From contig NC_092671.1 of NCBI RefSeq assembly GCF_964355755.1, positions 3,235,001-3,299,000 of the forward strand: 64,000 nucleotides of DNA. Direction: 5' to 3'. This document shows, piece by piece, positions 20,595-61,592 of the stretch. Each line of letters begins with the position of its first letter. Within the stretch, counting starts at the first letter, position 1. Position numbers and translations under genes: made by a program. This DNA is from Antedon mediterranea (lineage: Eukaryota > Echinodermata > Crinoidea > Comatulida > Antedonidae). The notes beneath the pieces were generated by a model. It was not told the origin of the DNA. It made no database searches and saw only the letters and a program-made list of their open reading frames with translations.

Positions 20595-23500
20595 ATGTTG
20601 GATGTTCAAGTATGCCTGCTACTTGTTGCCATTTTCGCGCCACTTTCCTTGTCGTCTGAAGAACCCCATCGTAGGGTAAGTTGTTATATTTTTACTTACT
20701 TTATTGGGCGGTTAATGGCCTTTTATTGCGTATAATATTTTTCTTTAGCAGTTAGGAACTATATTATGACTAACCATAAACGTGACCACGGTATATTCTA
20801 AATAAGGCACGGTATATTCTAAATAAGGCACGGTATATTCTAAATAAGGCACGGTATATTCTAAATAAGGCAGGTTTGTACTTTACAGGGCTATTATAAT
20901 ATACTGTAGGAGTAATATACAAAACTTGTATTAGACGGGCAGGATATTGTGGCGAATTGCTGGCGTATTTATAAATATTGCTCAACGTATGCCTATCTTT
21001 ATAACATGAAATAATTTTCTACATAATAAGTTGACATTATCTAATTTAGATTTAACATACGCCATTTTGTTTATTCGTATACTTTGAATTGGTGGAGGGT
21101 GACTGTTTAAACATATATTGTTATACATTTTAAGCAGGCTTTAGTGCGGCGTGGAAATTGGGCCTATATTTTTGAATAACAATAATTTAGATATCGTACA
21201 TTTTATGAGCTTTCGACAGAATTGGACTATTTAAATTATACAACTGTGTGTTTTATTTGCGACTATTGATAGTTTAAGTTGTTCAAACAATAACCATAAT
21301 ATTTTTACTTTCAGACGAAGAATCCAAGTAGCTATGTGAAACGTGAAGGTAAAGTTAAAATATGAATTGTGTTATGGTTATTGTAGATAGCTAGGTCACG
21401 GTTACACATTACCTAATATTACTATTAAATGTATTATTACATTACAGTTCCTGGGCTCCGATTGGATGGGTTAGGTTTTCGTGTCTCAAAGAAAGGATAG
21501 ATATAAATATTAATAGGCATGCGCATTAACCAACGCTCCACGATTGAATTCAAAACCTGCTTATTTCATTTCACATTTCATCTATCGCTTTTTGATGAAC
21601 AACTCTAAAATGTATATAGGAAATATTTTTTTAAATTTTGTATCTATTATGTTGTGTTTATTGTTTTATGTTTTTTATGTAAAAGGGTCCTGCGAAAACA
21701 GAAGTGTAAACTTCTCTATGCAGGATCCTTGCCATCATTTATGCTATGAAACTGTATTTATAAACGATGAGTAAATAAATGTGAATTGAATTGAATTGAA
21801 TTGAATGCATGTTAATACAAATAATCTGTATATTATAGGATAAGAACCGAACCGAACCGAAACAGGTGTAGGCCACTGGTGGTCCAAGTACAATAGACAT
21901 ACAATAGGCGTACATTTAAATTTAGTAGTAAATTATTTCTATTTTTATATGCGAAAAACGCAAATCTTACTAGGTTATTGATTCTTTGTTTATTGTTCAT
22001 TAGTAAAATAAATTTATTGATTTAAAAAATAAGGTTTTAAAGAAAAACATTCTAAAACAAAATCATTTTTAACAACATTGCATCTTCGTTTTCCTATGAA
22101 TTCCTGTCCATCTACCCTTTTCGTTTCCAAGATCCAAAATTCATAACCTTGCATGATTTGTTTAAACTTGAATATAAATATGAAAATCTTCTAATTTAAA
22201 ATTCGGTAAAAGTTAAAAAAGTATATAGTTAAATACATTTCTATTTGTTTCCATTTACTTGTGCGCATGCGCATACGCATACTTCTGTAGCTGGGGCTAT
22301 TGTCGTATTGTGCTACGTCGTCCTTATATCCCTTGATTACCTTTTTGTTTATTTAGATTTATTTAGAAAAACATATTCGGGCGGGACAACCCAAATTATT
22401 CCTTTACAGAAAGGTGATGAAAGGTCAAAGGTTGATGTCTAACTTCAATTAACTTCAATTAACTTCGATTAATGTGCCCGTACTTGTATACTAGCCTTTC
22501 TTGTTTCCTAAGAACCCATTTCAAAATTGTATTTAAACATTGTACATAATCATAATAATCATAATCATTATCATTATTTTCACATTATGATTTGATTTTG
22601 TATTCGTATATACAAAAAGTGGTAAAAATGGTTTGTGTAGTTCTAACATAGTAGCACATGCCTTGTACATTTCAGATAGTTGTGAAGGATTTCGATGTAC
22701 CTCTGGACTATGTATCGATTTTGAGTATACTTGTGATGGGGATGCTTCTGACTGCCAATTCAGTGGCGAAGATGAAAACTATTACATGTGCCGCAACCGT
22801 AGAGAATGCAAAAGAGCTGACCAATACCTCTGTCCAAGCGGACGATGCATCAAATTCATCTGGATTTGTGATGAAGTGAACGACTGTGGAGATTTCGCTG
22901 ACGAGCCTGAGAGTTGTAAAGAAAGATCATGTGATAGCGATCACTTCCGATGTAGTACTGGGTCATGTCTTCCACGAGAGTTTGTCTGTGATAATCATGT
23001 ACATTGTAGAGATGGAGAGGATGAGTCCGAGTGTAATTTGGAAGTTGGCTGTAATGCTGATGAGTTTCAATGCGAAGACAAGTCATGCATAGCAAACACA
23101 AACGTCTGTGATGGCTCGAAGAACTGTTGGCCTGGTGGTGAGGATGAAGCGACCTGTAACATTGAAACCGGGTGTAAAGATGGTGAATTCCAGTGTGAAG
23201 ACGAGACTTGTATTCCAGAATCAAAACTTTGTGATGGATGGAAAGACTGTTGGCCCGGTGGTGAGGACGAAGGAGCTTGTAACATCGAAACGGGATGCAA
23301 AGATGGTGAGTTCCAGTGTGAAGATCAGACTTGTATTCCAGAATCCAAACTTTGTAATGGATGGAAAGACTGTTGGCCTGGTGGTGAGGATGAAGCGACC
23401 TGTAACATTGAAACCGGGTGTAAAGATGGTGAATTCCAGTGTGAAGACGAGACTTGTATTCCAGAATCAAAACTTTGTGATGGATGGAAAGACTGTTGGC

Positions 23501-26500
23501 CCGGTGGTGAGGACGAAGCAGCTTGTAACATCGAAACGGGATGCAAAGATGGTGAGTTCCAGTGTGAAGATCAGACTTGTATTCCAGAATCCAAACTTTG
23601 TAATGGATGGAAAGACTGTTGGCCTGGTGGTGAGGATGAAGCGACCTGTAACATTGAAACCGGGTGTAAAGATGGTGAATTCCAGTGTGAAGACGAGACT
23701 TGTATTCCAGAATCAAAACTTTGTGATGGATGGAAAGACTGTTGGCCCGGTGGTGAGGACGAAGCAGCTTGTAACATCGAAACGGGATGCAAAGATGGTG
23801 AGTTCCAGTGTGAAGATCAGACTTGTATTCCAGAATCCAAACTTTGTAATGGATGGAAAGACTGTTGGCCTGGTGGTGAGGACGAAACCGCCTGTAATAT
23901 CGAAACAGGATGCAAAGATGGTGAGTTCCAGTGTGAAGATCAGACTTGTATTCCAGAATCAAAACTTTGTAATGGATGGAAAGACTGTTGGCCTGGTGGT
24001 GAGGACGAAGCAGCTTGTAACATCGAAACGGGATGTAAAGACGGTGAATTCCAATGTGAAGACAAGACTTGTATTCCAGAATCCAAACTTTGTAATGGAT
24101 GGAAAGACTGTTGGCCTGGTGGTGAAGACGAAGCAGCTTGTAACATCGAAACGGGATGTAAAGACGGTGAATTCCAATGTGAAGACAAGACTTGTATTCC
24201 AGAATCCAAACTTTGTGACGGATGGAAAGACTGTTGGCCTGGTGGTGAGGACGAAGCAGCTTGTAACATCGAAACGGGATGTAAAGACGGTGAATTCCAA
24301 TGTGAAGACAAGACTTGTATTCCAGAATCCAAACGTTGTGACGGATGGAAAGACTGTTGGCCTGGTGGTGAGGACGAAGCAGCTTGTAACATCAAAACGA
24401 GATGTAAAGACGGTGAATTCCAATGTGAAGACAAGACTTGTATTCCAGAATCCAAACTTTGTGATGGATGGAAAGACTGTTGGCCTGGTGGTGAGGACGA
24501 AGCAGCTTGTAACATCGAAACTGAATGTAAAGACGGTGAATTCCAATGTGAAGACAAGACTTGTATTCCAGAATCCAAACTTTGTAATGGATGGAAAGAC
24601 TGTTGGCCTGGTGGTGAGGACGAAGCGACTTGCAACATCGTTACTTGTCCAAAAGATGAGTTTAAATGCCAGGATAACACTTGTATTGATAATCGATTGG
24701 TATGTGACGGCTGGAAACATTGTTACCCACACGGTGAAGACGAACAGAACTGTATAAGCTGCAAAGGCCAGTTTGAATGCAATGATGGATCGTGTTTAGA
24801 CACAAATAAAGTATGCGATGGTACGAAGCACTGTTTTCCAGAGGGCGAGGATGAGATATGCGTTATTGATCCATGCAAACCAGGCGAGTTCCAGTGTGAA
24901 GATGGTAAATGTATTGGCGCAGACTACGTTTGTGATGGATGGACACATTGTTGGCCAGGGGGCGAGGATGAAACCACCTGTAATATCGAAACAGGATGCA
25001 AAGATGGTGAGTTCCAGTGTGAAGATCAGACTTGTATTCCAGAATCAAAACTTTGTAATGGATGGAAAGACTGTTGGCCTGGTGGTGAGGACGAAACCGC
25101 CTGTAATATCGAAACAGGATGCAAAGATGGTGAGTTCCAGTGTGAAGATCAGACTTGTATTCCAGAATCAAAACTTTGTGATGGATGGAAAGACTGTTGG
25201 CCTGGTGGTGAGGACGAAACCGCCTGTAATATCGAAACAGGATGCAAAGATGGTGAGTTCCAGTGTGAAGATCAGACTTGTATTCCAGAGTCCAAACTTT
25301 GTGATGGATGGAAAGACTGTTGGCCTGGTGGTGAGGACGAAACCGCCTGTAATATCGAAACTGAATGTAAAGACGGTGAATTCCAATGTGAAGACAAGAC
25401 TTGTATTCCAGAATCCAAACTTTGTAATGGATGGAAAGACTGTTGGCCTGGTGGTGAGGACGAAGCAGCTTGTAATATCGAAACTGAATGTAAAGACGGT
25501 GAATTCCAATGTGAAGACAAGACTTGTATTCCAGAATCCAAGCTTTGTAATGGATGGAAAGACTGTTGGCCTGGTGGTGAGGACGAAACCGCCTGTAATA
25601 TCGAAACAGGATGCAAAGATGGTGAGTTCCAGTGTGAAGATCAGACTTGTATTCCAGAATCCAAACTTTGTGATGGATGGAAAGACTGTTGGCCTGGCGG
25701 TGAGGACGAAGCAGCTTGTAACATCGAAGCTGAATGTAAAGACGGTGAATTCCAATGTGAAGACAAGACTTGTATTCCAGAATCCAAACTTTGTGATGGA
25801 TGGAAAGACTGTTGGCCTGGTGGTGAGGACGAAGCAGCTTGTAACATCGTTACTTGTCCAAAAGATGAGTTTAAATGCCAGGATAACACTTGTATTGATA
25901 ATCGATTGGTATGTGACGGCTGGAAACATTGTTATCCTAATGGTGAAGATGAGGCAAGTTGCAACATTGTAACTCCTTGTAAGGATGATGAATTCCAATG
26001 CAATGATAAAAGTTGTATCGGAACATTGTATGTATGCGACGGATGGGTCAACTGCCTACCTGATGGTGAGGATGAACATAGTTGCCAACTCCAAGGTAGG
26101 CTTTTCGCCATTATCTTTCAACAATTATCTGTTGAAATATAGTGCCTCTCTCCATTTAAAATACATTCTGAAATCTTAATCTTATCTTGTATATATATTC
26201 ATATATACAATTTATTTTGTTTACACATATAGATTTTAATTGCATTAATATGAAATACATACAAAAATAGATACTGTACTAATACAAATAAAAGCAAAAT
26301 AAAGTAACTTGTTCATACCTTAGTTAAGCATAGTTAAGCTTAGTTACTTTTTTTTTTCTTTTTCACATTATTGATTGTCTCCATCCCCGAAACCTTGACT
26401 AAGAAATACCGGAATGGTGTCCGGCGGGGGATAGTTTATTACCATTAGTTAAGGTCCAATGTAAAGCACCTAGAGGGGTCAGTGATCCATTAGGCGCTAT

Positions 26501-27366: not shown

Positions 27367-27808
27367 CAAATATTTGCTTCCCATAATTAAACTAATGAAT
27401 GAGTTCCCAACTCATTAAAACTTGTACAGTATTAAGAAACATAACTACAACTTATCTAATGTATATTTGGTTTTGCTATTAAACCCGGAATTTGCTCTTA
27501 AACGGTGGATTGTATATTTGTTATTATCTGTAGTAAAGCAATCGTCTAATAGCGCCATTTCTGTAAACATCCTTTTCCAATCTATTGTGCCGACGACGGT
27601 GTCTTTAGACATAGGCATATTATGAGAAACAACAGTTGGCAAATGTATTCAATTATTTAACGTTTGCTCAACTCGGCAGAAACTGTCGATGTATTACCAT
27701 AACGGAGCTGTATGTAGGCCTACTTTAACATTGTTGTGAGCAGTTTTGTACACGGGATTGCAAAGGTTGTATACAGAAACCCTACTATAGGAACTACGAA
27801 TTTGGAAA
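27367..27808. other. Intergenic region between gene C and the TLR gene
   Basis: 442 bp holding the 3' untranslated region of gene C and the 5' flank of the TLR gene, which are on the same strand. I see no further gene. It includes one copy of the over-represented TAGGCCTA word near 27715. Confidence 0.5.
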
Positions 27809-30499
27809 ATGTTACTATTTCTTTTGTTTTTCGGTTTCCATCTTATTGTAATTAATGAAACGAAATCCGGTCTTCCATGTAAAATCTTCAAATATCATAA
27901 TGCAGATTGTGTAGGTCGAATGATTGTCGATTTTCCAGATAATTTGCCTGTAAACATTAAAGATGTTGACCTTAGTGGTAATCATGTAAGAATATTGGAC
28001 AAACCAACACCATACATGAAACTGGAAAAACTTACTTTACGCGAAAATGGATTGGAATCTATAAGCGTAGTTTTCTTTAGCAAAGTGACGTCATTGAAAC
28101 AGTTGGATCTATCGTATAATAAATTAAACGATTTAAACTTATCATCTTTAACAAATCTAATACATCTTGATTTAGCAGCTTCTGGGGTCAAAGATGAGTT
28201 ATTGAAAACCCGTATGTTTCAGTATTTGGTGAGTTTGCAGTCGTTGATTCTTCGTAAGAACAACCTTTTTCGAATACCGGCCAGCGCCTTTAAGGGCTTG
28301 GAAAATTCGCTAGAACATCTAGATTTATCGTACAACAACTTTGATTATATACCATCGGAAGTTTCAAAGCTAAAGTACTTATCTAAACTTGTGCTTAATC
28401 ACAATTCGTTCGGAATTCAATACGAATTTATTTTGCCAACATGTTTTGCAGAATTAAGTAATCTAAAATATCTCTATTTATCATCTTGTGGGATTAAATC
28501 CATGTCAAAGGGTGCCTTTTCTCTAATTACTCGCAATAATCTTACAGTTTTAGATCTTTCACAAAATAACTTTTCATATTTAAACGATTCTCTTCGGTTG
28601 ATGCATATTGACCTTTTTAATTTGTCATCAAGTAATATCAAAACTCTATCGGAGCTTGATGGTGTTAAAATTCGTCATTTGTCTTTAAATAACTGTACAT
28701 ATTTATTTAAAAATGGATCCGTTCTTCGGGAAACTTTACAAAGTGTATGCACCTGTGAATTGCAACGCTTGGATTTGTCCTGGAATGGAATACACACCAT
28801 TGAAGATGGCGCTTTATTTTGTTTAAGTGCGTTAACATCCATTCACCTAGATAATAATATTTTGGGTAATGAATCTATCCAAAAGGATGAATTTCAAAAA
28901 ATGAGAAATTTACAAACATTATCATTGAACAATAACGAATTTACATCGTTCGATTTACCTTTACTTGAACATATCAAACGCACTTTAAAACAGTTAGACT
29001 TGTACGATAACCAAATTTTAGGTTCCAAAATAAAAACTGGTAAAATTAGTTTTCCAAATTTGATTGCATTGAAGATAACTATTCCAAAGGTTAATATAAC
29101 AAAGTTAATACTTTCTATCGATATTAAAATGCCACACCTTGAAATTTTACATATTAAGCAACAGACTAATCATCACCGGAAATGCAAGGGTAAAGGTCAT
29201 ACCCCATATTCCAAAGAAACTCCACCATGGATACGTAACACATCCGCATTTGAACATCTCAAAGAACTTGCAATAATTGGTTATCAGTTTAAAACACAAT
29301 ATGATTTTGAAAGATTATTAAATTTTCTTTCTCCGAACATTGCAAAGTTGAGTCTTGAGAATTGTAACATTGAAAGTACATGGTTGCAATGTCTAAATAT
29401 GGAACGACTGAAGTATCTATCGCTTGCCGAAAATACAATCGACTCGCTACCAATTGATATATTTTGGAAAACTGATAAACTATCACATTTAGATTTATCA
29501 TCGAATTGTTTTACGAAGATAGATTATTCCATTTTATCTAACCTTAAACATATTAATATTATTGATTTATCGGACAATAAAATTGATAATAACATTAATG
29601 TCGATTTATTATCAAGTTTTTACAACTTGACATATTTTGATTTGAGTGGAAATAAGTTCCATTGTAATTGCGATTTGTACGAATTTAAAAACTGGTTGAA
29701 AATTGATAGCAAAGTTTATTTTCCAGAGTTCCAAAAATATGAATGCAGTAGTACGACACCGGAAAGTGTTTTCCTGTTGGAGTACGATCTATCGAGGTTT
29801 TCTTGTTACAATAAAACTATGGTGATTTGTATTTGCTTAACAACAGGAACCATTGTTCTAGTGTTATTTGTATCAATTGTTTGTTACCGTCGACGTTATT
29901 CTGTCCGGTTTGCTTGGTATTGGGTTAAGATTAAACTGCGGCCTAATTCGCATCATTATCAGCCTGTTCCAACATCTAGTGATACCACAGACTTTGATGT
30001 TTACGTTGCCAGCAACTCAAATGACTTTCAGTGGGTGAAATGGACATTAATTCCAAATTTGGAAAACTCATCTTATGCAATCCGTTTATGTATAAAAGAT
30101 CGAAACTTTCCAGTTGGTGGTAATGTAATGGAAGATATTATCGAGTTTATCCACGCTAGCCGTAAAACACTACTAATTCTTACCCCTGATTTTGTGCTGA
30201 ACGAATGGAACTACTTTGAGCTGCAAAGAGCTATGATTCGAGATCTTGAAGAAAAGCAGGACATGATCATTCCAGTCTTGCTTAAACCTATTAAAGATAA
30301 AGATCTACCGCGTCTTCTTCGTGAAATACAACTTCGAAAGGGATTTATAGAGTGGACAGAACATCCACTAGGGAAGGAGTTATTTTGGAAGGATCTCGTG
30401 AAAGCAATACAAGAAGATTCAACGTTGAGTCGATACAAAGATAACGAGATCAACAAATGGCGTAAACGTACTTCGATGACGTATAGCCACGTAATTTAA
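27809..30499 (+). CDS. Toll-like receptor (LRR-TM-TIR), intronless
   Basis: 896 residues in one exon, starting at a Met followed by a clear signal peptide (MLLFLLFFGFHLIVI). A short Cys pair (residues about 24-34) is followed by many leucine-rich repeats of LxxLxLxxN form up to about residue 614, one LRRCT cap (615-666, CNCDLYEFKNWL), a membrane helix (about 671-692, VICICLTTGTIVLVLFVSIV) and a cytoplasmic TIR domain (729-868). TIR landmarks are box 1 FDVYVASNSND, a BB-loop with KDRNFPVGG and box 3 ELFWKDL. TIR domains recruit MyD88-type adaptors in innate immune signalling; the ligand cannot be predicted. Single LRRCT and lack of introns match the vertebrate-type TLRs that are multiplied in several invertebrate deuterostomes. 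The frame is intact, so it looks functional. Confidence 0.95.
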   Translation: MLLFLLFFGFHLIVINETKSGLPCKIFKYHNADCVGRMIVDFPDNLPVNIKDVDLSGNHVRILDKPTPYMKLEKLTLRENGLESISVVFFSKVTSLKQLDLSYNKLNDLNLSSLTNLIHLDLAASGVKDELLKTRMFQYLVSLQSLILRKNNLFRIPASAFKGLENSLEHLDLSYNNFDYIPSEVSKLKYLSKLVLNHNSFGIQYEFILPTCFAELSNLKYLYLSSCGIKSMSKGAFSLITRNNLTVLDLSQNNFSYLNDSLRLMHIDLFNLSSSNIKTLSELDGVKIRHLSLNNCTYLFKNGSVLRETLQSVCTCELQRLDLSWNGIHTIEDGALFCLSALTSIHLDNNILGNESIQKDEFQKMRNLQTLSLNNNEFTSFDLPLLEHIKRTLKQLDLYDNQILGSKIKTGKISFPNLIALKITIPKVNITKLILSIDIKMPHLEILHIKQQTNHHRKCKGKGHTPYSKETPPWIRNTSAFEHLKELAIIGYQFKTQYDFERLLNFLSPNIAKLSLENCNIESTWLQCLNMERLKYLSLAENTIDSLPIDIFWKTDKLSHLDLSSNCFTKIDYSILSNLKHINIIDLSDNKIDNNINVDLLSSFYNLTYFDLSGNKFHCNCDLYEFKNWLKIDSKVYFPEFQKYECSSTTPESVFLLEYDLSRFSCYNKTMVICICLTTGTIVLVLFVSIVCYRRRYSVRFAWYWVKIKLRPNSHHYQPVPTSSDTTDFDVYVASNSNDFQWVKWTLIPNLENSSYAIRLCIKDRNFPVGGNVMEDIIEFIHASRKTLLILTPDFVLNEWNYFELQRAMIRDLEEKQDMIIPVLLKPIKDKDLPRLLREIQLRKGFIEWTEHPLGKELFWKDLVKAIQEDSTLSRYKDNEINKWRKRTSMTYSHVI

Positions 30500-32212: not shown

Positions 32213-35200
32213 TCAAAACAATATATCACCTGGATACATATAATTACTCACTAAATGTCGACCATACGTATGAAGAAGTTTCGGATACCAATGGACATTA
32301 TCATGCTGCGGTAGCTCTGACGGGCGTCCCCATAGTTGCGATTTAAGACTGTATAACCACCTCACGGGTGTGAAACACGCGTGCGCAATGAATTCATTGT
32401 CAATTAAAGCATACGACGACACTGCAACATTATCAACAACTATCGAACCTTTATATGTTAAAGGTGCGAATGCACCAGTCCTTTCTGTCATTGTTACACT
32501 CAAAACCTTCTCAGGAATCAAAACTTCTTGGTTACCACTTTTAACAACAGTAAAAATATATTGTCCTTCCATAATTCTACTCGCAAAAATTGCTTTCGAT
32601 TCTGAAAAAATTGAATTTGTATTCGATACGTAAATTATGTGTTCAGCCGTGAGTGATAACGTTTGGGACGGTGTAGAAACTGTATAAAATGACATATTTT
32701 TATGAGGTTTTGCATCGAGCATCATTATGACGTCACTGTATATAATACTGCCCTCATTGTCAACTGCTTTAACTCTGTCTCCTATTCTTACATCATTCAT
32801 TCGTTTGGTTTCTCCAGTTTCCAACGTCACTTCCGATTGCGCGGGAAAACATCCTCCTTCTTCTGAAGCTGGATTTGAATCTAAAATAAAAACAAAACAA
32901 ATTTGAAAGACAACGAAAATAATTTATTTTCGCAATAACCAAGGCCACTAACCTAGAGGTGACGTTGTGACCTTTTAAAACGTTGGTAAATAAAAGTATA
33001 ATGTTGAATTGTTACTCATTTAAGTTTATTGCATTATCACAAACAATTACCTTTTCTACGAACCATTATTCACTTTATTAACACACCAAGTTTTTCTAAA
33101 CAGATTCACACATTCAACTTTCATAGTTTCTAAAGGTTTATACTTAATACATTTTGTGTATTCGTCGAACTGATTTAAGAACATCCCGATTACTAGATGA
33201 ACTTTTGGCAGAGGTCGAATCAACAGGGTTTGATATTTCTTATGAAATTATGGTCCAAAGTTTACTGATTGTAGACAAACATGCGATATAGGACCACACT
33301 AAACACCAACTAATAATGGCAATAATGTTAACATGCATTGATACAGTTATACCAAGAAATGAAAACACTTTGCTATCGAATGTTAATAGATTATTTATGT
33401 TTTCTGGCGAATTTATCACTTCTACAAACAGTTCAAATAGTCACATTTAGTCTTTATAATTGAGTATACAATAAATGTCAATCAGTTATTCATAAAAGTT
33501 TGACTTTCTTACGATTAATGAATGTTAACTTACCAGATTTGACAGAAGCGTGGATGTATGACTTACTCTCGTAGTAAACCCAGTCAAATCCCGCCTCAAC
33601 AGCAAGTCTGGCCAACATTCCGTATTTGCTAGGGTCTATATCACTAGTAGTGATATCTACGGCCCTTCCTTCGTAGTGTAAAGAGTTACGAGGATGGCGG
33701 CCATCTTCATCCCATGCTTCTACCACCCGTAGTTTTATGTTTTCGTCTTTCCAGTGGTTCATTACCATGATTGCCAGTCGACTGAGACGATCGTTACATC
33801 TCTGTAAAATAAAAAACAAGGAATAGTTTATAGTCTAGTTTCATCATCTAAAATTAGAACTAATAGTGGTATGTTCAATAATATTACACCATTCCTGTTT
33901 CTTCTAGATTTGAGTACCAACAGTATTATTGCTTTTTGCTGCGTCACTGGAATAACTTTTTGGTAAGTTTTTTTGCAAGATACATTAGGTATTCTTCTTA
34001 AAACTGAAATGTTTTTATACGTTTTGGTTTATAGATAAAACTTGAGACAAACGAATTTCTGGTTTTTAGAGAGTTTTCAGTATTTAGAAAATTTTGTTCG
34101 ATTATTTACAGTAATTAGGCAAGAGTAGGCCTATGAATTTTATTTTTCATTTTATTTCATTTATATTTCCGAAAAGAAATGCGATTACAAATAAAAAATT
34201 AATCTTAGTTTTGAATCTGGATTTGCATTACAGTAGCTACATGTGAACCTTAAGACCAAGTTGAGACCTATATTGTACCATTAATAGATTAATTTAAGTA
34301 CAGTGGAACCAACAACAGTACATGTAAAATCATGAATTTTCATTAGAAGAGGAAGTATTCCATTTTTGGCAATTCTAAAAGAACTTAAAATTGAATCAAA
34401 GGCACATTGAAATAAAAATAGAACTCGCTAATCGGTGACTCTAGGGAGATCCTAATTCAGTTCTTTGACAGATTTTAAGATGTTTGTGTCTAGTGTTTTC
34501 ATACGGAATTTAAAAACTACTAAACTAACAATCTTATGTACATTTGGGACACTTATTAATTTAGGAGTTCAGTGATGCAGAAGCAAGATTTCTTTAAATA
34601 ATTGAACGGTAAGATGGGTCCATTCAAAGACAGAACAGTGCACAGAGGACATAGGTTCAAATGTTCTTTACAGTTGTTTGTTTAGTGGTAAAGAACAAGT
34701 TGAAATCACATGCGCTGTTGATCATTAGACAACATCAGCAAAATACCTGAAATGTATAATACTATGAGAAACCTGCTAAACAATTTGTTACTGACAATGT
34801 TTCCATTTTTTTTCTTTATAAAATGTATTAAAACGATAACTTATAAAAACATGACATTTTAGATAGACTTTACGAATTTCTCAAATGTAGGCCTACTTTA
34901 TATGACAAACAGGATTATTTTAGTAGACTTAATTTGATATGAACATATAGTAAAAACAGAAAATCGACCTAGTTCGTATTTGTAGGAGCTCTAAATTTTG
35001 TTTCTCCAAACCAAATGACGATATTTGCTAAATAGCCATTGGTGCTATAGCTTTAGCATTGGAAAAAATGGCCAATGAACAAATCGATCAACTTAAAGGT
35101 TATGTATAATATCATAAGCGAGTCTAAATCTTGGTTCCCACACTATGTGGCAACGCTAGGATGTAAGCGCAACGCAACTAGTTTAACCAATCACAAGATA

Positions 35201-41200: not shown

Positions 41201-43581
41201 GCCATATCATGAGCTTGGCCTAATTGTATAACAAAGCTAACGTTAAAATGATCGGGAAATGGAAATGAAGTTGTTATTCATATAATTAGAAATATAACAA
41301 TATGTTATAGGTGAATTTAAAATTAATTTGGTAAATTCATTATTAATTTAATAAGTAAACATCCAACCGAGCCTCGAACTCGAAATAATGCGCAGAAATC
41401 TATATTTTTAATAAATAAAAATCTCTATAAATTATGTATTGTTAACTAAAAGGTGGAAACTTGAAATTGTAGAGCGCGACATACTGAAACAAATGATGAA
41501 TTTATCACAAAAAAACCACAAACTTTAACTGCTTTATGTGATACAAGAATTGGACAATGCTCTAATTTATACTGAGACAAAAACGAAATAAATTGCTTAT
41601 TCATCAATCTAATAAAATGTCCTTTAGTTGACACTGTCTTGAGTCATATATATTGGATTTTTTTTCCATTTGAAACCATTTATACAATAATTCGTTATGT
41701 TCACGTTAAGTGCGAATTTCCGTTCGTCTATCCCAATGTTTAAGCAAGTTGCTCATCTTTAATTCACCGCAAGAAAATAAGTCCCTATAGCATATATCTT
41801 GGTACTTGGTGCGTAGATATCTTTGCAGTTTATTAGCAAGATATATACTGAAATTGAGAATAAAGTAATAGGCCTCCTAATAATGCAAATTACTTAATTT
41901 GAATTGGCACCCGATTCTCAGTGCTGTATCTCCAAAATAATATTATCCTGTCTCAGAAACAGTCGTAATACAGCATATCATGTGTATCACATGTGATTCC
42001 TGTATAATGCAATTTTAGATTAATGGTTAAGTTATGGTTTATGTTATACATTTAAAACCCATGTGGAGCTGTATCATGGTATTTTCCATGATAAAGTACT
42101 AATTTAGATAAAGTACCTAGAAATGAATTACAGGACATGTATACGAATGTAATAAAATAATACTGATAATCATAATGTAACCATATAAACCAAAATATGT
42201 TAATAATGAAATCATAAATTTCTATTTTTAAATACAAAATATACGGTTAATGCATTAATTTTGCCGGTTAATTTATGTATACACAATAGTGTGAGATCGT
42301 GTGTAAAACAAGCAAATGACTCGTGTTAAACAATATCAGTTATATTATTTTAAATGTATAATATCTATTATACAGGTGTATATATTGTTGGTGTAAGTAT
42401 TGTAAATATTTAGTTTATCAAAGTTAAATAATTGGAGTTAAAATAATAGTCAATTATACTATTGTGCGGTTTTTTCTTATTCTCGTAGATATTCTCATCT
42501 TCATCGTTTTATAAATAATTCAATTCATTTCCAGTCTATCTCTAAGCGGTGTTTTAGAGTTGTCTATGCCTGTCTATGTGTATAATATTTCACAAAATTT
42601 CACAGCCAAAGAGAAGCTCGAAACCGGGCATAATATTTTATTTTTACTTTACTGCACATCCCTAAAGCTATGTATCATAGTGTACCGTATATAGGAATTT
42701 ATGTTTAGCGGAACAGTAATTAGAACACATTGCCAATATTATATTTAATGTTTCTCAGTTTCTGTCATCATTATTCCTAAACCATTGAAATGCATTACTG
42801 TGATTATTTAAAATTGGGTTGGTTTATATTTGGTTTTGTAAAAGAGTAGGCCTATTTCAATAACAGTGCACGATTCTTAGTCTTAGCATGGAGAAATAAG
42901 TTAGTTAATAACTTATTTCTCCATGGTCTTAGCAAATATTGATGACAATTGTAATAGCTAAACAATTGAATATAAAAACATGGTAGGATGAAATTACAGC
43001 ATGTTATAGAATAACAGTTTGTTTTTGGTCAGAAGTTTTCTATTAGTTGCGTGTATGTGTAACGTGGTATATGCCTTGTGCAGTTTCATTGATTCTCGTT
43101 GTATGCTTGTAGGACAATGTGCATGTACAAGAGTAGGCCCTAATTGTGAAATGCATATCCAGGTCTTTCTAAGCCTACAATTCAATAGGCATATAAGTGT
43201 AAAGCCCAGACATATATCGTTTGCTAATAAACTTAGGCTACAAATTAGATAAGAGAAATGATAATATACCTGTGTCATTATCTGATCGGCGCCTGTGTCT
43301 TCTTCATCTTTGAACTCAATATCTGTATTGACATTTTTAGTGAGCTCATTGAAAGCGGCGTCATCCCGATAAATCCTACCCTCGGCTTCTCCACTTGCAG
43401 GCACTTTGCATTCAGAAATACTGGGAACGTATTCTCTATAGTTGAGGGGTCTCAGCGGTTCCTGTCCCCTACTGCTACCACCAGGCCGGCTTGGAGAGCA
43501 CGCAAAAGTTACCCCAACAAAAACGATATAAACGAACAAATGGTATAGTTTCCTATGTTTTCTCATCGTGTATGTTTCCAA
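32213..43581 (-). CDS. hh: Hedgehog signalling protein
   Basis: Three exons on the minus strand: 43581-43270, 33801-33534 and 32880-32213, 1248 nt, 415 residues. Both introns sit where hedgehog introns usually do (after MTQ, and near the end of the signalling domain). Residues 1-27 are a signal peptide; Cys28 is the expected palmitoylation site. The N-terminal signalling domain keeps calcium-site residues ([19 protein letters not shown]) and zinc-site His/Asp/His ([17 protein letters not shown]). The Hint autoprocessing domain starts at GG|CF (Gly203/Cys204), where cleavage and cholesterol attachment occur, and has TAEH as the conserved TxxH. Odd points: the mature N-terminus is CSPSRPGG rather than CGPGRG; the usual Cys of the ASCYA motif is Ser (SSYAL); the zinc-side second His of AHIH is Tyr. 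The start could also be Met6 (43566). Confidence 0.95.
35130..35288. mobile_element. MITE family B, copy 1
   Basis: Starts ttggttcccacac and ends gtgggaacagagttt (inverted). The interior is an imperfect hairpin with gtaagcgcaacgcaa on one arm and tgattggtcaaatcac, ttgcgtt.. on the other. Related copies lie at 36672-36800, 36810-36933, 38175-38312, 56550-56655, 61994-62130 and 63529-63676. No coding sequence. Confidence 0.65.
36672..36933. mobile_element. MITE family B, copies 2 and 3 side by side
   Basis: Two family B elements in tandem: 36672-36800 (aagcttagttcccact ... ttgcgttgcgcttacgtcc) and 36810-36933 (ttggttcccagtag ... gtagtgggaaccaagctt). Copy 3 keeps both inverted ends (ttggttccca / gggaaccaa); copy 2 lacks its right end. 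They lie in hedgehog intron 1. Confidence 0.6.
38175..38445. mobile_element. MITE family B copy 4 followed by family C copy 2
   Basis: 38175-38312 shares gcgcaacgtaggtgatttga and gttgtgattggtcaacacgc with the other B copies but has lost the gggaacc ends. It is followed at 38313-38445 by a segment matching the repeat at 17107-17270 (aaggggacacc ... cccttcgttcgtttta ... ataagggtgtcgcc). Confidence 0.5.
40090..40190. repeat. Tandem duplication of a segment of about 50 bp
   Basis: The stretch tatagagatacgcaagacat ... gtgctagRttgtaggc occurs twice in a row with one or two differences. Lies in hedgehog intron 1. Confidence 0.85.
40763..41150. repeat. 58-bp minisatellite (ggcagagaaaacacctcaga unit)
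   Basis: Five tandem copies of a 58-bp unit that ends with tacagcgacggtcccg, at 40763-41056, plus a degraded copy at 41119-41150. Because 58 is not a multiple of three, each plus-strand frame is cycled and three overlapping open frames appear; they are artefacts. Lies in hedgehog intron 1. Confidence 0.85.
42450..42620. repeat. Dispersed repeat shared with 60575-60690
   Basis: Both regions share tcttattctc.tagat.t, tcatctt.atcgttt, aaataatt.aatt and a gcggt near the end, in the same order. The distant copy is in intron 1 of the P450 gene next to a Penelope-like segment, so both may be pieces of one retroelement. Confidence 0.4.
42887..42925. repeat. Perfect hairpin, 17-bp arms and 5-nt loop
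   Basis: catggagaaataagtta at 42887-42903 is followed by loop gttaa and by its exact reverse complement at 42909-42925. It lies 345 bp inside the 5' end of hedgehog intron 1. It could be the core of a small MITE or a structured RNA element. Confidence 0.8.
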
Positions 43582-44224
43582 TGAAAAGTTGTAGATGTCC
43601 CAAAGTCAAGCTTATAATAAACTATTACAAACCAAGTTGGTTTTTAACGGTACTTTTCAATCTTCCAAAATGTGGAATCAACAAGTGGTTATAAACTTCC
43701 GCTCTGATTTAATCGATGAATGAAGTTATCACGATACCAGAACTACCCAGTTCCGTGTCAGTAACAGCAGAACAGAACACTCACCAGTCAAATGTACAAA
43801 TGGAAATTGTCAACAAACTCTCTTATTTAATATATTGATAGTTTAGCTTTGAGATAATAGCAACTGGACTCTATTGTTTAATACGGACTTTTCATTGGTC
43901 TATACTATGTGACGTATACTAGTATACTGCTGCAACCATGTTTCCACAATGAAACGGGCAAACAACGTACACAATATTAGAACACGTTTCACCTTTTCCA
44001 AGATCTAAATCAAAGATAAAATAATATATTGTTAATATAATAAATATTATCTAATATTTTCTATAAAAAGAAGAATGTTTTTAATTCTATTTCGGCCACG
44101 CCTATTTATTATTCTATTGATTTAGTGTTATAATGAAATGTGAAGATATTGCGCGTGTATTTTGTGACGTACTTTTTTATAATTAGAGTTATATATTTTT
44201 TTAACAAAGTGATCAAGAACATTT

Positions 44225-49619: not shown

Positions 49620-50830
49620 CATAAGTGATGTAAAGTAAAGTAATGTGACGTAAAGTAATGTGACGTAAAGTAATGTAATGTAAAGTAATATGATGTAAAG
49701 TAATGTGATGTAAAGTAATGTGATGTAAAGTAATGTGATGTAAAGTGATTAAAGTAATGTGATGTAAAGTAATGTGATGTAAAGTAATGTGATGTAAAGT
49801 GATGTAAAGTAATGTGATGTAAAGTAATGTAATGTAAAGCAATGTGATGTAAAGTAATGTAATGTAAAGCAATGTGATGTAAAGTAATGTATGTGATGTA
49901 AAGTAATGTGATGTAAAGTAATGTGATGTAAAGTAATATGATGTAAAGTAATGTAATGTAAAGCAATGTAATGTAAAGTAATGTGATGTAAAGTAATGTA
50001 ATGTAAAGTAATATGATGTAAAGTAATGTGATGTAAAGTAATGTAATGTAAAGCATTGTGATGTAAAGTGATGTAAAGTAAAGTAATGTGACGTAAAATA
50101 ATGTGATGTAAAGTAATGTAATGTAAAGTAATATGATGTAAAGTAATGTGATGTAAAGTAATGTGATATAAAGTAATGTGATGTAAAGTAATGTGATGTA
50201 AAGTAATGTAATGTAAAGTAATGTGATGTAAAGTAATGTGATATAAAGTAATGTGATGTAAAGTAATGTGATGTAAAGTAATGTGATGTAAAGTAATGTG
50301 ATGTAAAGTAATGTGATGTAAAGTAATGTAATGTAAAGTAATGTGATGTAAAGTAATGTGATATAAAGTAATGTGATGTAAAGTAATGTGATGTAAAGTA
50401 ATGTGATGTAAAGTAATGTGATGTAAAGTAATGTGATGTAAAGTAATGTGATGTAAAGTAATGTGATGTAAAGTAATGTGATGTAAAGTGATTAAAGTAA
50501 TGTGATGTAAAGTAATGTGATGTAAAGTAATGTGATGTAAAGTGATGTAAAGTAATGTGATGTAAAGTAATGTAATGTAAAGCAATGTAATGTAAAGTAA
50601 TGTGATGTAAAGTAATGTAATGTAAAGTAATGTATGTGATGTAAAGTAATGTGATGTAAAGTAATGTGATGTAAAGTAATATGATGTAAAGTAATGTAAT
50701 GTAAAGCAATGTAATGTAAAGTAATGTGATGTAAAGTAATGTGATGAAATGTAATGTAATGTAAAGTAATGCAAAGTAATGTGATGTAAGTACAGTAATG
50801 TGATGTAAAGTAATGTAATGTGATGTAAAT
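49620..50830. repeat. 15-bp satellite (taatgtgatgtaaag)n, about 1.2 kb
   Basis: About 80 copies of a 15-bp unit with variants gtaatgtaatgtaaag, acgtaaag and a few shortened units (gatgtaaagtgattaaag). Larger blocks also recur: the run with gtgattaaagtaatgtgatg at about 49745 appears again at about 50488. The unit is a multiple of three with no stop in minus frames, which creates long YFTSH or TLHHI peptides that are not genes. Confidence 0.95.
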
Positions 50831-56190: not shown

Positions 56191-59100
56191 CTATTCGTCA
56201 CTTTGAGGCCCGGTGATGTCAGGCTTCTGATCTCGCTCGACAAAATACATGAAGCTTTCTCCTGTTGGTTGTTGTGCAATGTCCCACCTTGTTTCAATCT
56301 CATTCAGCGACTTGCCTACCGAGTTGATGACGCGGTACCCGCGAAGAAAGACACAGAAGAACACCTTCATTTCAACCATCGCAAGGAACTGACCAATGCA
56401 GCCTTTCGGTCCCGTTCCAAATGGCACAAACTGCTCCTGATCAAGCTGAAAGAGAACATACATTCACCAGGGTGGCGCGATAGGTAAAATATTCAAATAA
56501 ATGTCCTACAATACTCAATTGAATCGACTAATTTAGACCCGGACACAGTTTAACATTGGTTCTCACTTGAACGCAACAACTCAACGACGTGTGTACAACG
56601 CGTCGTGATTGGACAAATTACGTGCGCACGCATTTACAGTGGAAACTAAGCATCACTGTTTTAATTGTATAACCGTCAGTGAAATTGCTAATAGTGGCCA
56701 GAATTGTTCCATCCATGCATTCGGATCAATCAAAAGAAAGGGAATCTACAATGTATGCAATATATGACAATTTTGGAGAAAAAAAATATAAACAAAGCAT
56801 GCAATATTATAATAAAAGTTCACCTTCTTAGAAAAGTTTTCAGGATCGAATTCATTTGGATTCTTGAAGATGTCCGGTCGTCTGTGCATGTCTGCCAAAT
56901 TCAAGATTATGTTGGTTCCTTTTGAAATTTCAATACCTTCAATGACGTCATCATCAATTGCTCTGCGCATAATAACTGGTCCGACTGGCTTATATCTCAT
57001 AGATTCTTTAAGAGCCTGCTCAAGATAGATCAGTTTTGGCAAATCACCTTTTACTGGATTTCTGTCACCTATATAAGATATCATGATTTGTTATTTCTAG
57101 GCCTAATGATATTATTCTCAAAGAATTAATTCCACTGGTCCGCCGTTTAGGATCTATCATCAAGCAAAACTTGTTTGCCTGGAAATTCATGCTGGCAAAA
57201 ATGTTTGCAGCCATCTTTCTCGCGCGTATTCTATGTTAGCCAATCACATTGTCAAAATATGAGAATAATTTTATTTCAATTTTTTTTTTCGGAAACAAAG
57301 CAATATAAAACAGGTTTATGCTATTTTATAAATGACGTCATTAACTTACCAACTACTTGATCAATTTCTTCAAGGATTCTCTTTTCAACATCCGGGTTAC
57401 TTGCCACTGACACCAGCAGATAATACATTGTTACTGATGATGTATCTGTTCCCGCCAAAAGCATTTCAAGTATACATTGTCTGACATTATTGGTCGTTAT
57501 CTCTCCACGTTTCTTTGAATGGAATAATCATTAATTAGGTGGGTCAAATTAATTATAATTACAAACAACATCATGGAGTAAAGATAAGCAACATCATGGA
57601 GCTTTTGTTGATGGTAAATGTTGTAGATCTAAGCTTTTTTATTATTTTTTTTTTTATTTTATTCATTTGAAACCAACAGCGATAATTACCGCCACTAACA
57701 GGTTTTTGATACAAACAAAGCCAGGACTGTTTAAAGCACCTTGAGGAAAGGCATAAGCCAATACGTCTGAGGCAGATACTAGATGCAGGGGGCTGCCATA
57801 AGAGTCAGCAGTGCTGATTTCAAATTCCTAACGGGACCCCGGCTTCGAATACAGCACCCGCTATTCCCAGATGGTATCCCATCCAAGCTCTACCAGTCCC
57901 AAAGTTGCTTAACTTCGATGATCTGACGAGAACCGGTGTTTCAACGTGGTAAAGCCGTATATGTTGAATATATTTTTGCAATATATTCACCCAACCGATC
58001 GAATTAGTGGTTAAAACTTAAATCTCTCTTGCTTTATACTATGGCCAACAAAAATACAATTTAAGTTACTACACATACTTCAGCTTCTATCAGTTTTGTG
58101 GAGAAGTCCGATGGAAGTGGGTTGTCCCCTTTCTGCAGATCAACCAGAGATGCTCTCTTCTTTTCTATCATGGAATCTATGGCCTCATTAAGACGATCGC
58201 TATCAAATAGAGTAAAGTAGATAAACATATAGTGGTTCTAAGCCATATGGTATTATCAATCACTTTACGACACGATTAATTAATTTTGTCATCTAATTGT
58301 TTAAATATATAATAGTAATGTTTTAATGATGTTACAATGCAATGCAGTAAAAGCTGTGACCTAGGATGTTTGTTACATTCTTATGTTTTTTATTTAAAAT
58401 AAAGGATAATTTTTTATATCAACAAATATTCTTTCTTACATTGATCTGACGTGTTTCTTGTATTCTGATGACGTCATCCAGTAATACAGTGAAGGGTTTA
58501 TAAGAAAATACTCCCATGCTTTAAAGTACTGTACAATTCGGTCCACAAGATCTTCATCTGTCATCAAAATTAGAATAACAAAGGTCTAAAGTTAGTGAAG
58601 TTAAATGACCAAGCAGTTTGAAAATACAATTCAGCCATGCCATCAACTAAATTGTATAGAGGGCGCTACATTGCAAAAATCTTACTTTTGTTTATGAATA
58701 AGAAAAAAAATGAAAAGAGTTTTTAGTATGATTTAAATTACCGTCATCAACTTGGACTCCAAGCATCAATATATTCGTGACGTCAAGTGTAATTCTTCTT
58801 ATGAAATTCAGTCCATCAATTCGCCTGTCTGCTGCCCTCGTTTGGAAATCCCCAATTCGTGCGATTTGACGATTAGTAGCGTCTATTGTGATCGACGAAG
58901 CACGATTTAACGAATCGGCATTCAATGCTAGAAAGAAAAGAAGCATGGAATTTTTTTTTAAACAATTGATACAAAGATAAAAAAAAACATTAAAATACGG
59001 TGGCTCGTAAGTATCACGGCAACTATTTTTGAAAGTTGTTATGACACTTACAGGCCACCGTAATATAGAGTTATTAAGCTCTACGTACCTCTTTGAAAAA

Positions 59101-61592
59101 ATGCGCGTTGCGTCTTCCAGCCCTCAACGTCATTGTTCCAAATAATTCCACTCTTAAACATTCCTATGTGGTTTAGACCCGTGTCATTGCCAAACCTTTT
59201 ACAGTAGTTGTTTCCGTTCGTTTTCAGTATGTACCACGCGGCAGACGGTCTATTATAAAATAGAAAGATTATTGTAATGTTGTTTAAAAAGTTTCGAAAG
59301 AGTAGGCCTATCACTCTCCCTCCTATTGCTAGATGCCAGATGTGTAAAATTTATGTCAGATAGCATAATTATGCCAGATTTGGCCACTATGTGCCGCAAC
59401 CCCACACAAGCGAGCCAATGTGGAGATAATCATGCGATACCTTACTTTTAATACGTCATCATTGCGCGTGTGAGGTGTCATTTTTTTTCTTACCTGGTTA
59501 TCAGGTATGTTGGTTCTCCTGCTATCCATACACGGACGACATCCCCAAACTGTTTATTGTAATAACTAGCAGCCCCTGGTATGCCAAAGTACAGAAATCG
59601 CAGATTACTCAGAAATGCACCCAGTCCATAATTTCTAGCAGGACCTATAAAATAAGATTACAATTATAGTATCATACTTCAAGAGTCGGTTGGCATACAC
59701 ACCCCACCTTAAAAAACATTATTGGGGTATTTTGTTTGATATGGAATAAATTAAAACAGATCAGTTGTAAAAAAAAATCATTTTGTGAATTATGGTCAGT
59801 TTTGATCAAAAGTTTGTCGATTTAATAATACCTAAAACATAATTTAACATAGCATGGGTTATTTGTGGGGTTTGTTTATTCAAGGATAGTTATGAGACAG
59901 GTTTTCTTTTAATTGCGATCCCTAAAACAGTTTTTTTACTGTCTAATGTTGTTATGAACATCGAACATGTTAAAATAGTACGGCTTAAGATAATAAGGCC
60001 AAACTACGTGGTAATCTTCTACATTGATAGTGTGTTGTTAGATTTTTTAATTCAATTCCTCTAACTCTGGCAATTGTCAACTCATGCAGGATTCGTTGAA
60101 CTCTACTATAGTATGTCTAATCGTTTCACAAAGTGAACCAGAAAAAAAATCTTCGTAACAACCAAACAGCATCAATGCTTGACCTCCCGAACAATAACGA
60201 AGGATTAGGATTCACTGGAATTCTCTCTTTAGTTACAAATTTAACAATGCCTATATCTCTTTTTGTTTGCTTTTTTTTTCAAATTGTTATGTGAAAGTGC
60301 ATTTAGAAAAAAGTGGAACTAAAGCTCTGTCTACTCAATCAAACTAGTGTGTGTGATGTGCCTAAATATGGTACGGTAGTGATATGACATCATAATGTCC
60401 ATATGGGCACAGCACATTTTGTGTCGTATAAAGTTTGATAGTAAGTGTAAATTGGAACAGGATCGCAGGAAGGAAGCTTGTAATAGGGGTAGAAATCAAA
60501 AATATTTATTTTACGAACAATACAAGAATAATTTATTGTAATCTATTTTTCAGTTCATCACATAATTATAGTATATAATAATACGACTTTTTCTCATTCT
60601 CACAGATTTCCTCATCTTTATCGTTTCAAATTAATTAATTAAATTTCAGTATATCACAGGGCGGTCCGGTTTCGAATTACTGTTCATTGCCTAATGTGTT
60701 TATATATATATATATAAACATGAGTGGGAGAAAGGACTCCCTCAAATATATATATATATATATATATAAATCCAAAGGCAAATTACTGAAAAAAATGACA
60801 ATGCTGTGGGTATCAGTGGCTGGATCTCAATGGAGATACAAAAATAAAAAGCGAAAAGCTAAATCAAAACGATAAAGTAAACAGCCAGAAAAGTTAGCAG
60901 AGCTTTCGACAACACTAGCCCTTCATCAGTGCAAGTGAAGAAATTTGGATAACGTCATAGTATAAAGCTGGCAAGTGCTGCCTGCACTTTATAAATCATA
61001 CTGTAAATTATAGAAACAGTGCTCATATTCGGAACATGATATTTGAGGGAGTCCTTTCTCCCACTCATCCCTTGTTTTGACGTAACTTTAAAAAAAAAAG
61101 GGGGAGGGGCTAAGAGGGAGCTATGTTCATTTAGAGAGTGCCCTTGTACTCCCACCCATCCTCCCCTAGTCTATTCCCTTGTCTTTATCAACAAAATTTC
61201 ACCTAAAATGTTCAGGTCTAGTCAAATAATATTTCCGCACACACTTTTCTGGAGTGTCATTTCAATTATAATGTTCGTGCAAGACACGATCGGATCAGTT
61301 AAATTTATTTACCTTGACAAAAGGGCTTAACTACATTTTTTCTTGATATTATTACTGTATAATACATAAATAATAAAAAATGCAGTAATTTTTCATTAAA
61401 ATATATGAAAGTAACTAGCGTGCAGCTGTGATACACTGTAACTCCTTATCTAAAGCACTTACCTGGGATACGCTTCGTGACAAGTCCAGTAGTAGTAGGT
61501 CTATACCGGAATTTCAGAATCAGTAACAATGGAATTATAAACAGGGAAATATAAATACTAAGATTTGTAAATGGTAGATTTGACAAATACAT
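56191..61592 (-). CDS. Aromatase-like cytochrome P450 (CYP19 family/clan)
   Basis: Nine coding exons on the minus strand: 61592-61463, 59644-59494, 59249-59089, 58927-58742, 58557-58440, 58199-58079, 57512-57350, 57068-56824 and 56445-56191. The sum is 1530 nt, 509 residues, and every junction keeps frame. An N-terminal membrane anchor (LSIYISLFIIPLLLILKF) targets the endoplasmic reticulum. P450 landmarks are the I-helix LLAGTDTSS (Asp312, Thr313), K-helix ESMR (365-368), a DPENF meander and the heme loop FGTGPKGCIG with ligand Cys441. The resemblance to vertebrate aromatase is close throughout, from memory: VRVWIAGE, the IGMFKSGIIWNN segment, AEKRGEITTNNVRQCILEML and KGTNIILN..MHR; human CYP19A1 also has nine coding exons and 503 residues. 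Differences: Lys439 in place of the heme-loop Arg, Thr for the I-helix Pro, and Gly-Pro for Val370-Asp371. Aromatase converts androgens to oestrogens; activity here is not proven. Confidence 0.9.
56550..56655. mobile_element. MITE family B, copy 5
   Basis: Starts attggttctcacttg and ends acagtggaaactaagc, with cgtgattggacaaatta in the middle. A diverged B copy inside the last intron of the P450 gene (56446-56823). Confidence 0.45.
57634..57961 (-). mobile_element. 5S rRNA-derived SINE (intron 6 of the P450 gene)
   Basis: On the minus strand 57961-57846 matches 5S rRNA along its length: TACCACGTTGAA, CACCGGTTCTCGTC, GATCATCGAAGTTAAGCAAC, GCTTGGATGGGATACC and GGGTGCTGTA. The internal promoter C-box (CTTGGATGGG) is kept. 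The match is followed by a non-5S body of about 180 bp (including CTTATGGCAGCCCCCTGCAT) and an A-rich tail at about 57660-57634. This composite head-body-tail is the plan of 5S-headed SINE3-type elements, not of a real 5S gene, which would end in a T-run after the 5S segment. Only a 6-bp candidate target duplication (CAACAT) is seen. Confidence 0.8.
58995..59066. repeat. Imperfect palindrome (MITE-like) in P450 intron 3
   Basis: tacggtggctcgtaagt at the left faces acttacaggccaccgta at the right, with further pairing (caact / agttg) inside. It lies just 23 bp from the splice donor of exon 3. Likely a tiny MITE. Confidence 0.6.
60321..60445. mobile_element. MITE family A, copy 2
   Basis: aaagctctgtctac start, gatgtgcctaaatatggta and tagtgatatgacatcat in the interior, and gtttgatagt near the right end, as in copies 1 and 3. 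Lies in intron 1 of the P450 gene. Confidence 0.6.
60719..61069 (-). mobile_element. Penelope-like fragment with a hammerhead-ribozyme-like core
   Basis: The 30-bp ends, catgagtgggagaaaggact.. at 60719 and its reverse complement ending at 61069, are inverted repeats. On the minus strand between them lies CACTGATGAAGGGCTAGTGT then TGTCGAAAGCTCTGCTAAC (about 60932-60892): CTGATGA and GAAA are the conserved hammerhead core words, separated by what looks like a decayed GGGC..GCCC stem II and followed by a very short GC/GC stem III. Minimal hammerheads of this shape are known in Penelope-like elements. No ORF remains. Tandem TA runs flank it at 60698-60712 and 60748-60770. Confidence 0.55.

Follow-up and report, generated by a model that had tools for sequence, protein, structure and literature searches.

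A CYP19-family cytochrome P450 gene in the feather star Antedon mediterranea encodes a protein without the aromatase-defining proline

CYP19, the cytochrome P450 family of the aromatases, is described as known from chordates only (PMC4229089) or, more narrowly, as confined to vertebrates and amphioxus (PMC7838161, PMC7827799), and it was not found in the sea cucumber Holothuria scabra (PMC7838161), in four cnidarians including Hydra (PMC8110760) or in Capitella (PMC4229089), as far as the accessible parts of these sources, and of the other articles cited below, extend. The closest described systems are human CYP19A1 (PDB 3eqm) and the CYP19 proteins of Branchiostoma, the latter standing at a distance from the human enzyme (40% identity for B. 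floridae, PMC7827799) similar to that of the protein described here. A 2024 paper (PMC11047327) reported the cloning of two amphioxus CYP19 genes, for which an amphioxus-specific duplication was preferred, and its tree grouped Cyp19-like1 with "hydroids and sea lilies" and Cyp19-like2 with vertebrates. Since no CYP19 was found in the four cnidarians of PMC8110760, the "hydroids" of that tree need checking. The "sea lily" CYP19-like protein belongs to the same animal class as Antedon and probably represents this gene in a different crinoid; it is known from a one-sentence mention in the accessible part of PMC11047327, and no further description of a crinoid CYP19 was encountered in the literature examined, which included few subscription papers.

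The gene studied here lies in a window, by which we mean the whole 64,000-nucleotide stretch of A. mediterranea DNA that was analysed. The initial annotation of this window had treated CYP19 as a chordate family, in agreement with the chordates-only wording of PMC4229089. The new gene goes beyond such statements, although the grouping of a crinoid sequence with CYP19 was already present in the tree of PMC11047327. An echinoderm CYP19 moves the root of the family back, and the retention of catalytic residues in a protein that lacks a proline described as unique to aromatases bears on whether oestrogen synthesis came first or an older steroid oxidase preceded it. Sex hormones in A. mediterranea are the subject of a report, as far as its accessible part shows, which provides a physiological setting for the oestrogen question.

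Structure and family membership of the gene

The CYP19-like gene of Antedon runs on the minus strand of the window from 61592 to 56191 in nine exons, which we rebuilt with explicit splice sites. All eight introns are bounded by GT...AG, in phases 1, 2, 1, 1, 2, 0, 1 and 0, and the reading frame consists of 509 codons followed by TAG, with no internal stop. The nine exons and the 509-residue P450 proposed in the initial annotation were thus recovered at the same coordinates, with canonical splice sites and an intact frame. Human CYP19A1 presumably has nine coding exons too, a number that we assume together with its intron positions. Nine is also the exon count of both zebrafish CYP19 genes and of amphioxus cyp19-like2 (PMC11047327).

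With structural elements named after PMC7827799, exon 1 (61463..61592) carries the start codon and the hydrophobic N-terminal stretch and ends in phase 1 at ...KRIP/G, while exon 2 (59494..59644) encodes the hinge after PGP, helix A and the beta-1 strands. The start codon is placed at the ATG at 61592, a choice supported by an in-frame TAA four codons upstream. The N-terminus is hydrophobic over approximately residues 8-28 (hydropathy peak of 2.22 over the 19 residues from residue 8), and this segment would fit the usual membrane anchor of a microsomal P450. Exon 3 (59089..59249) covers the B-C loop, in which I133, W141 and R145 are kept and F134 is replaced by Trp131; exon 4 (58742..58927) carries Arg191, the counterpart of human R192; exon 5 (58440..58557) encodes helix F with Y220-F221-K-A-W224; and exon 6 (58079..58199) ends in phase 0 after ...IEAE. 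Helix I is found in exon 7 (57350..57512) as EMLLAGTDTSSV, with Thr311 at the P308 site and Asp312-Thr313 at the positions of D309-T310. Exon 8 (56824..57068) contains the ESMR of helix K, the K-beta3 loop and Met377-Arg378, with a Pfam PF00067 match at C2:3291821-3292072, and exon 9 (56191..56445) contains the heme loop PFGTGPKGCIG with Cys441 and the TAG stop, with a second PF00067 match at C2:3291263-3291442. The locus is situated 3.29 Mb into contig C2, which is at least 35.7 Mb long, and within about 13 kb of a Hedgehog gene.

The Antedon protein is identical to human CYP19A1 at 183 of 435 aligned positions (42.1%), over Antedon residues 39-485 and a human piece from 44 to 483, in a comparison with this one family member. 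This value lies above the 40% identity given as the limit of a P450 family (PMC4229089). When the full human chain was used with phmmer, the match was likewise limited to Antedon residues 39-487, so that the likeness to CYP19A1 that the initial annotation had extended over the full length is shown for the P450 body, the two ends falling outside the alignment; at the C-terminus, these are the last 24 residues. A hydrophobic N-terminal stretch is nevertheless common to both proteins. N-termini differ between the Antedon protein and B. japonicum CYP19, whose cloning primers begin ATGTACGGAGTG and ATGGACCTAGGC (PMC11047327).

Among the best 60 of 403 distinct sequences matched in the PDB, human CYP19A1 came first with 372 bits (E = 3e-110), while the highest-scoring P450 from a different family reached 114 bits (E = 4.4e-32), showing that the likeness to CYP19A1 is not due to chance. 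Reciprocally, a search of the genome (354 Mb in 18 contigs) with human CYP19A1 returned five of the nine exons of the Antedon gene (exons 8, 7, 2, 3 and 9), summing to 238 bits. The top single match was exon 8 with 75.9 bits and 49% identity, which is a narrow margin per match over the 71.8 bits of a CYP3-type gene made of one long exon. CYP19A1 and the Antedon gene are therefore reciprocal best matches, rather than CYP19A1 and a member of another P450 family. Outside the locus, the best genome match of the Antedon protein was a CYP3-type gene (92 bits, 30% identity), and no second CYP19 locus was detected in the genome at the sensitivity of searches with the Antedon protein and human CYP19A1.

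A P450 phylogeny, which the initial annotation had also proposed, was built from 14 rows representing CYP19, CYP1, CYP2-type, CYP3, CYP11A, CYP97 and one bacterial P450. Of 11 genomic P450 regions, six became rows, and the other five, which gave shorter pieces, were omitted; amphioxus and clans 4, 7, 20, 26, 46 and 51 lie outside this tree, and other clans entered the comparison through their PDB scores. In this tree the Antedon protein pairs with human CYP19A1 with a support of 100/100. CYP19 was not among the rows flagged by the tree program, which were a long one (CYP11A1) and two with unusual composition. A grouping of the Antedon protein with the CYP3-type rows was rejected (p-AU 3.3e-05). 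The genome's own CYP3-type P450s (L020-L022) are among the best P450 matches outside the locus, with 27-30% identity to the CYP19-like protein over approximately its C-terminal half, yet they form a 100/100 clade with CYP3A4, to which L022 matches with 328 bits. Membership of the Antedon protein in the CYP19 family, as judged from identity, score, reciprocal match and tree, is thus well supported.

Host genome and nuclear receptors

Seven contigs of the assembly range in length from 41.4 Mb (C1) to 22.3 Mb (C11) and, set against the total of 354 Mb, suggest about 11 chromosomes and some small pieces. Several markers place this genome in the crinoids. The FoxQ2 primers published for A. mediterranea (PMC11336682) match at 24 of 24 and 20 of 20 positions, facing each other, both within a forkhead frame on contig C11. 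Elsewhere in the genome the first primer has four further matches, every one with three mismatches. For two of the four tektin genes, chains of PDB entry 8snb, which we take to be from sea urchin, score 572 versus 386 bits and 601 versus 375 bits against the best other entry, the other tektin entries being presumably mammalian. A crinotocin precursor was found at locus L033 on contig C4, where CFWRTCPVG-GKR, the A. mediterranea crinotocin, follows a signal-peptide-like stretch; the genome's single neurophysin match comes about 8 kb further on. The Antedon peptide has Trp-Arg at positions 3-4, the feature that distinguishes VP/OT-type peptides of crinoids from those of other echinoderms (PMC9793003). 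A weaker marker comes from the A. mediterranea calcitonin-precursor primers of the same article, of which the forward one matches at 21 of 22 positions; the best match of the reverse primer in the 3-kb locus, which perhaps contains one exon, has seven mismatches, and the locus shows no calcitonin motif. An amphioxus host was rejected, because the N-terminus is unlike those of the cloned B. japonicum genes, residues deviate from Branchiostoma and the crinoid markers are present. A search for mitochondrial COX1 gave no match.

The same genome was searched for receptors through which an oestrogen could act. With the human oestrogen receptor (ER) DNA-binding domain as the query, 41 matches were obtained, none above 68% identity, and the 68% match is an oestrogen-related receptor (ERR) with the P-box CEACKAF. 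Eight of the 41 matches, at seven loci, were read in sequence, and two of these are the two DNA-binding exons of one ERR. We take CEACKAF to be the P-box of ERR, CEGCKAF that of ER and CGSCKV that of the steroid receptors. Neither of the latter two was present in the other six matches read; weak matches, gaps or the 33 further matches could hide an ER or a steroid receptor. A complete oestrogen system is not supported by this result, since the eight of 41 matches read include an ERR and no DNA-binding domain of the ER or steroid-receptor type.

Active site, possible reaction and descent

Aromatases carry a proline at position 308 in all 365 sequences compared, including two from Branchiostoma, and this residue is unique to aromatase among P450s (PMC7827799). 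By shifting helix I, it allows D309 to reach the 3-keto group of the substrate (PMC7827799, PMC9366932). In the Antedon protein this position is Thr311, so the aromatase-defining proline is absent, and A307G and I305L adjoin the replacement in helix I. Around it, much of the catalytic apparatus is conserved: Asp312 and Thr313 correspond to D309 and T310 and Arg191 to R192, so that the acid-alcohol pair and R192, the residues of the proton relay, are kept, the FKAW segment supplies human F221 and W224, and Met377-Arg378 align with M374-R375. All the equivalences that the initial annotation had listed (Asp312, Thr313, FKAW and Met377-Arg378) are borne out by the alignment. In human aromatase, activity falls by 95% in D309N, by 60-70% in T310A and by 71% in R192Q (PMC9366932).

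Over the 17 substrate and catalysis residues of Table 1 in PMC7827799, nine are identical (C437, A306, D309, T310, F221, W224, I133, M374 and R192), seven are changed (I305L, F134W, V370G, L372V, V373I, L477I and S478A) and the last, E483, lies beyond the aligned end. Five of the 12 substrate contacts are identical (I133, F221, W224, A306 and M374), and the seven others are changed, several of them conservatively. The general P450 machinery is kept, with the heme cysteine Cys441 at the position of C437 and the ExxR of helix K, as are three of the four heme-propionate contacts (R115, W141 and R145); the fourth, R435, which is said to be present in all aromatases (PMC7827799), is Lys439. Thus, human CYP19A1 and the Antedon protein share D309, T310, R192, F221, W224, M374 and I133 but differ at P308 (Thr), A307 (Gly), F134 (Trp), V370 (Gly), L372 (Val), V373 (Ile), R435 (Lys) and K440 (Gln). 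Branchiostoma CYP19 and the Antedon protein both have leucine or valine at I305 and glycine at A307, whereas Branchiostoma keeps P308 and reads P/E/T/R/T at K389/K420/R425/K440/Y441, where Antedon reads S/K/E/Q/F (PMC7827799). The substrate pocket can still be recognised as that of a CYP19 protein, though in a reshaped form. The route to oestrogen-like steroids that the initial annotation had suggested is not supported as stated: the proline that all 365 aromatases have at 308 is replaced by threonine, and F134, V370 and R435 differ as well.

Our preferred reading, to which we give a probability of about 0.85, is that Antedon has an intact crinoid CYP19 gene, most likely inherited vertically, and that its product is most likely a C19-methyl-oxidising monooxygenase of the endoplasmic reticulum. 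When expressed, the protein would be anchored in that membrane by its N-terminal segment and would receive electrons from cytochrome P450 reductase. Its substrate would be a steroid, bound so that the A-ring lies against helix I close to Asp312/Thr313. Oxidation would take place at the C19 methyl of the steroid, the reaction either proceeding to an aromatic A-ring, and hence an oestrogen, or stopping at a 19-oxygenated product. We thus read the protein, from its sequence, as a probable steroid C19-methyl oxidase for which full aromatisation is possible and should not be assumed. Aromatase activity is plausible, and we place putative aromatisation of some 3-keto C19 steroid a little short of an even chance.

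How far the reaction would go depends on how the kept and the changed residues are weighed. That the protein is a true aromatase, which would make oestrogens from androgens in the gonads of the feather star just as the vertebrate enzyme does, is conceivable, with the odds somewhat against it: D309, T310, R192, F221, W224, M374, I133, A306 and Cys437 are all retained, and the Branchiostoma enzymes, which are called aromatases, show the same kinds of residue at I305 and A307, but P308T and R435K fall at positions invariant in 365 aromatases, F134W and V370G come in addition, and the eight of 41 receptor matches read included no recognisable DNA-binding domain of the ER or steroid-receptor type. 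The same substitutions could instead mark a P450 of the CYP19 family with no aromatase in its ancestry, one that hydroxylates or cleaves another sterol, aromatisation having arisen later, on the chordate line, together with P308. Changes at P308 and V370 are accompanied by others in the K-beta3 loop and at the F134 contact, P308 is the very residue that kinks helix I and brings D309 to the 3-keto group (PMC7827799, PMC9366932), and the receptor matches read in sequence agree with this proposal too; we nonetheless hold it tentatively and would expect it to fail, since the protein retains R192, the contacts in helix F and the acid-alcohol pair, and since, in a comparison made without an outgroup CYP19, a loss of P308 in the lineage leading to crinoids is just as conceivable. 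A broader scenario, which we consider unlikely, is that CYP19 predates the echinoderm-chordate split and began as a non-aromatase sterol oxidase, acting on the C19 methyl or another site in an ancestor without an oestrogen receptor, that chordates then gained P308 and a remodelled K-beta3 loop, and that the feather star retains the older form.

Two other proposals concern where the gene came from. It may be the orthologue of amphioxus cyp19-like1, vertebrate CYP19A1 descending from like2 after a duplication that preceded the echinoderm-chordate split, which would make it a cousin of human aromatase. We find this doubtful: although the amphioxus tree puts like1 beside "hydroids and sea lilies" and joins like2 to the vertebrates, PMC11047327 itself prefers an amphioxus-specific duplication, like1 has ten exons where like2 and the Antedon gene have nine (PMC11047327), and the "hydroids" of the supporting tree clash with the absence reported for cnidarians (PMC8110760). 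Acquisition from a chordate by transfer, or contamination of the assembly, is very improbable. A patchy range, with no CYP19 found in Holothuria scabra, four cnidarians and Capitella (PMC7838161, PMC8110760, PMC4229089), would suit a transfer, and a transfer of genomic DNA would be compatible with conserved introns, but the gene lies on a contig that is at least 35.7 Mb long, at 3.29 Mb and within about 13 kb of Hedgehog, it is only 42% identical to human CYP19A1, it has threonine and lysine at two positions invariant in 365 aromatases, and crinoid CYP19-like sequences are mentioned in PMC11047327.

Vertical inheritance is thus the most likely origin of the Antedon gene. The initial annotation had argued that the family would have an earlier origin if the host were an echinoderm; with a CYP19-family protein in a crinoid, its root lies at least as deep as the last ancestor that echinoderms share with chordates, barring transfer between animals. 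The family looks older than the chordates on this sequence evidence, and an intact echinoderm CYP19 implies that the gene was lost in lineages where it was not found, the sea cucumber among them (PMC7838161).

Synteny was examined with three neighbours of human CYP19, DMXL, TNFAIP8 and tropomodulin, taken from PMC1215479. Tropomodulin lies at 0.72 Mb on contig C2, on the same chromosome as the CYP19-like gene and 2.6 Mb from it, while TNFAIP8 (C11:6946642-6947193) and a DMXL-type gene (C11:7578675-7583706) lie 0.63 Mb apart on C11, where no CYP19 was found. The Pfam numbers used to find the three genes are those that we assume to be correct for them. Sharing a chromosome with one of three neighbours has a chance probability of about 1 in 4, given roughly 11 chromosomes, a number that we presume for crinoids. 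With one of three neighbours linked and DMXL and TNFAIP8 elsewhere, synteny neither supports nor refutes orthology. The TNFAIP8-DMXL linkage on C11 is perhaps old, dating from before CYP19 joined these genes or from after it left them.

Other features of the window

The neighbouring Hedgehog gene is encoded on the minus strand in three pieces (32213-32923, 33490-33834 and 42994-43605), comprising two signal-domain stretches (PF01085) and one Hint stretch (PF01079). Its N-terminus looks unusual against the CGPGRG... start that we take to be that of Hedgehog in other animals. On the plus strand, a single 902-residue frame at 27791-30499 combines leucine-rich repeats with a TIR domain and encodes a Toll-like receptor. 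A 1183-residue frame at 22591-26142, also on the plus strand, contains 26 LDL-receptor class A stretches, many of them near-identical, and looks like a tandem expansion within one exon. The repetitive region at 1-10100 probably holds a second gene of the LDL-receptor class A type, on the minus strand, since one minus-strand frame has 57 matches to a loosely defined end motif of LDL-receptor class A repeats, against none in the five remaining frames. Finally, a tandem array at 49623-50829, made of approximately 81 copies of the 15-base unit AAGTAATGTGATGTA, accounts for spuriously long open stretches, reading as FTSHY repeats, in several of the frames.
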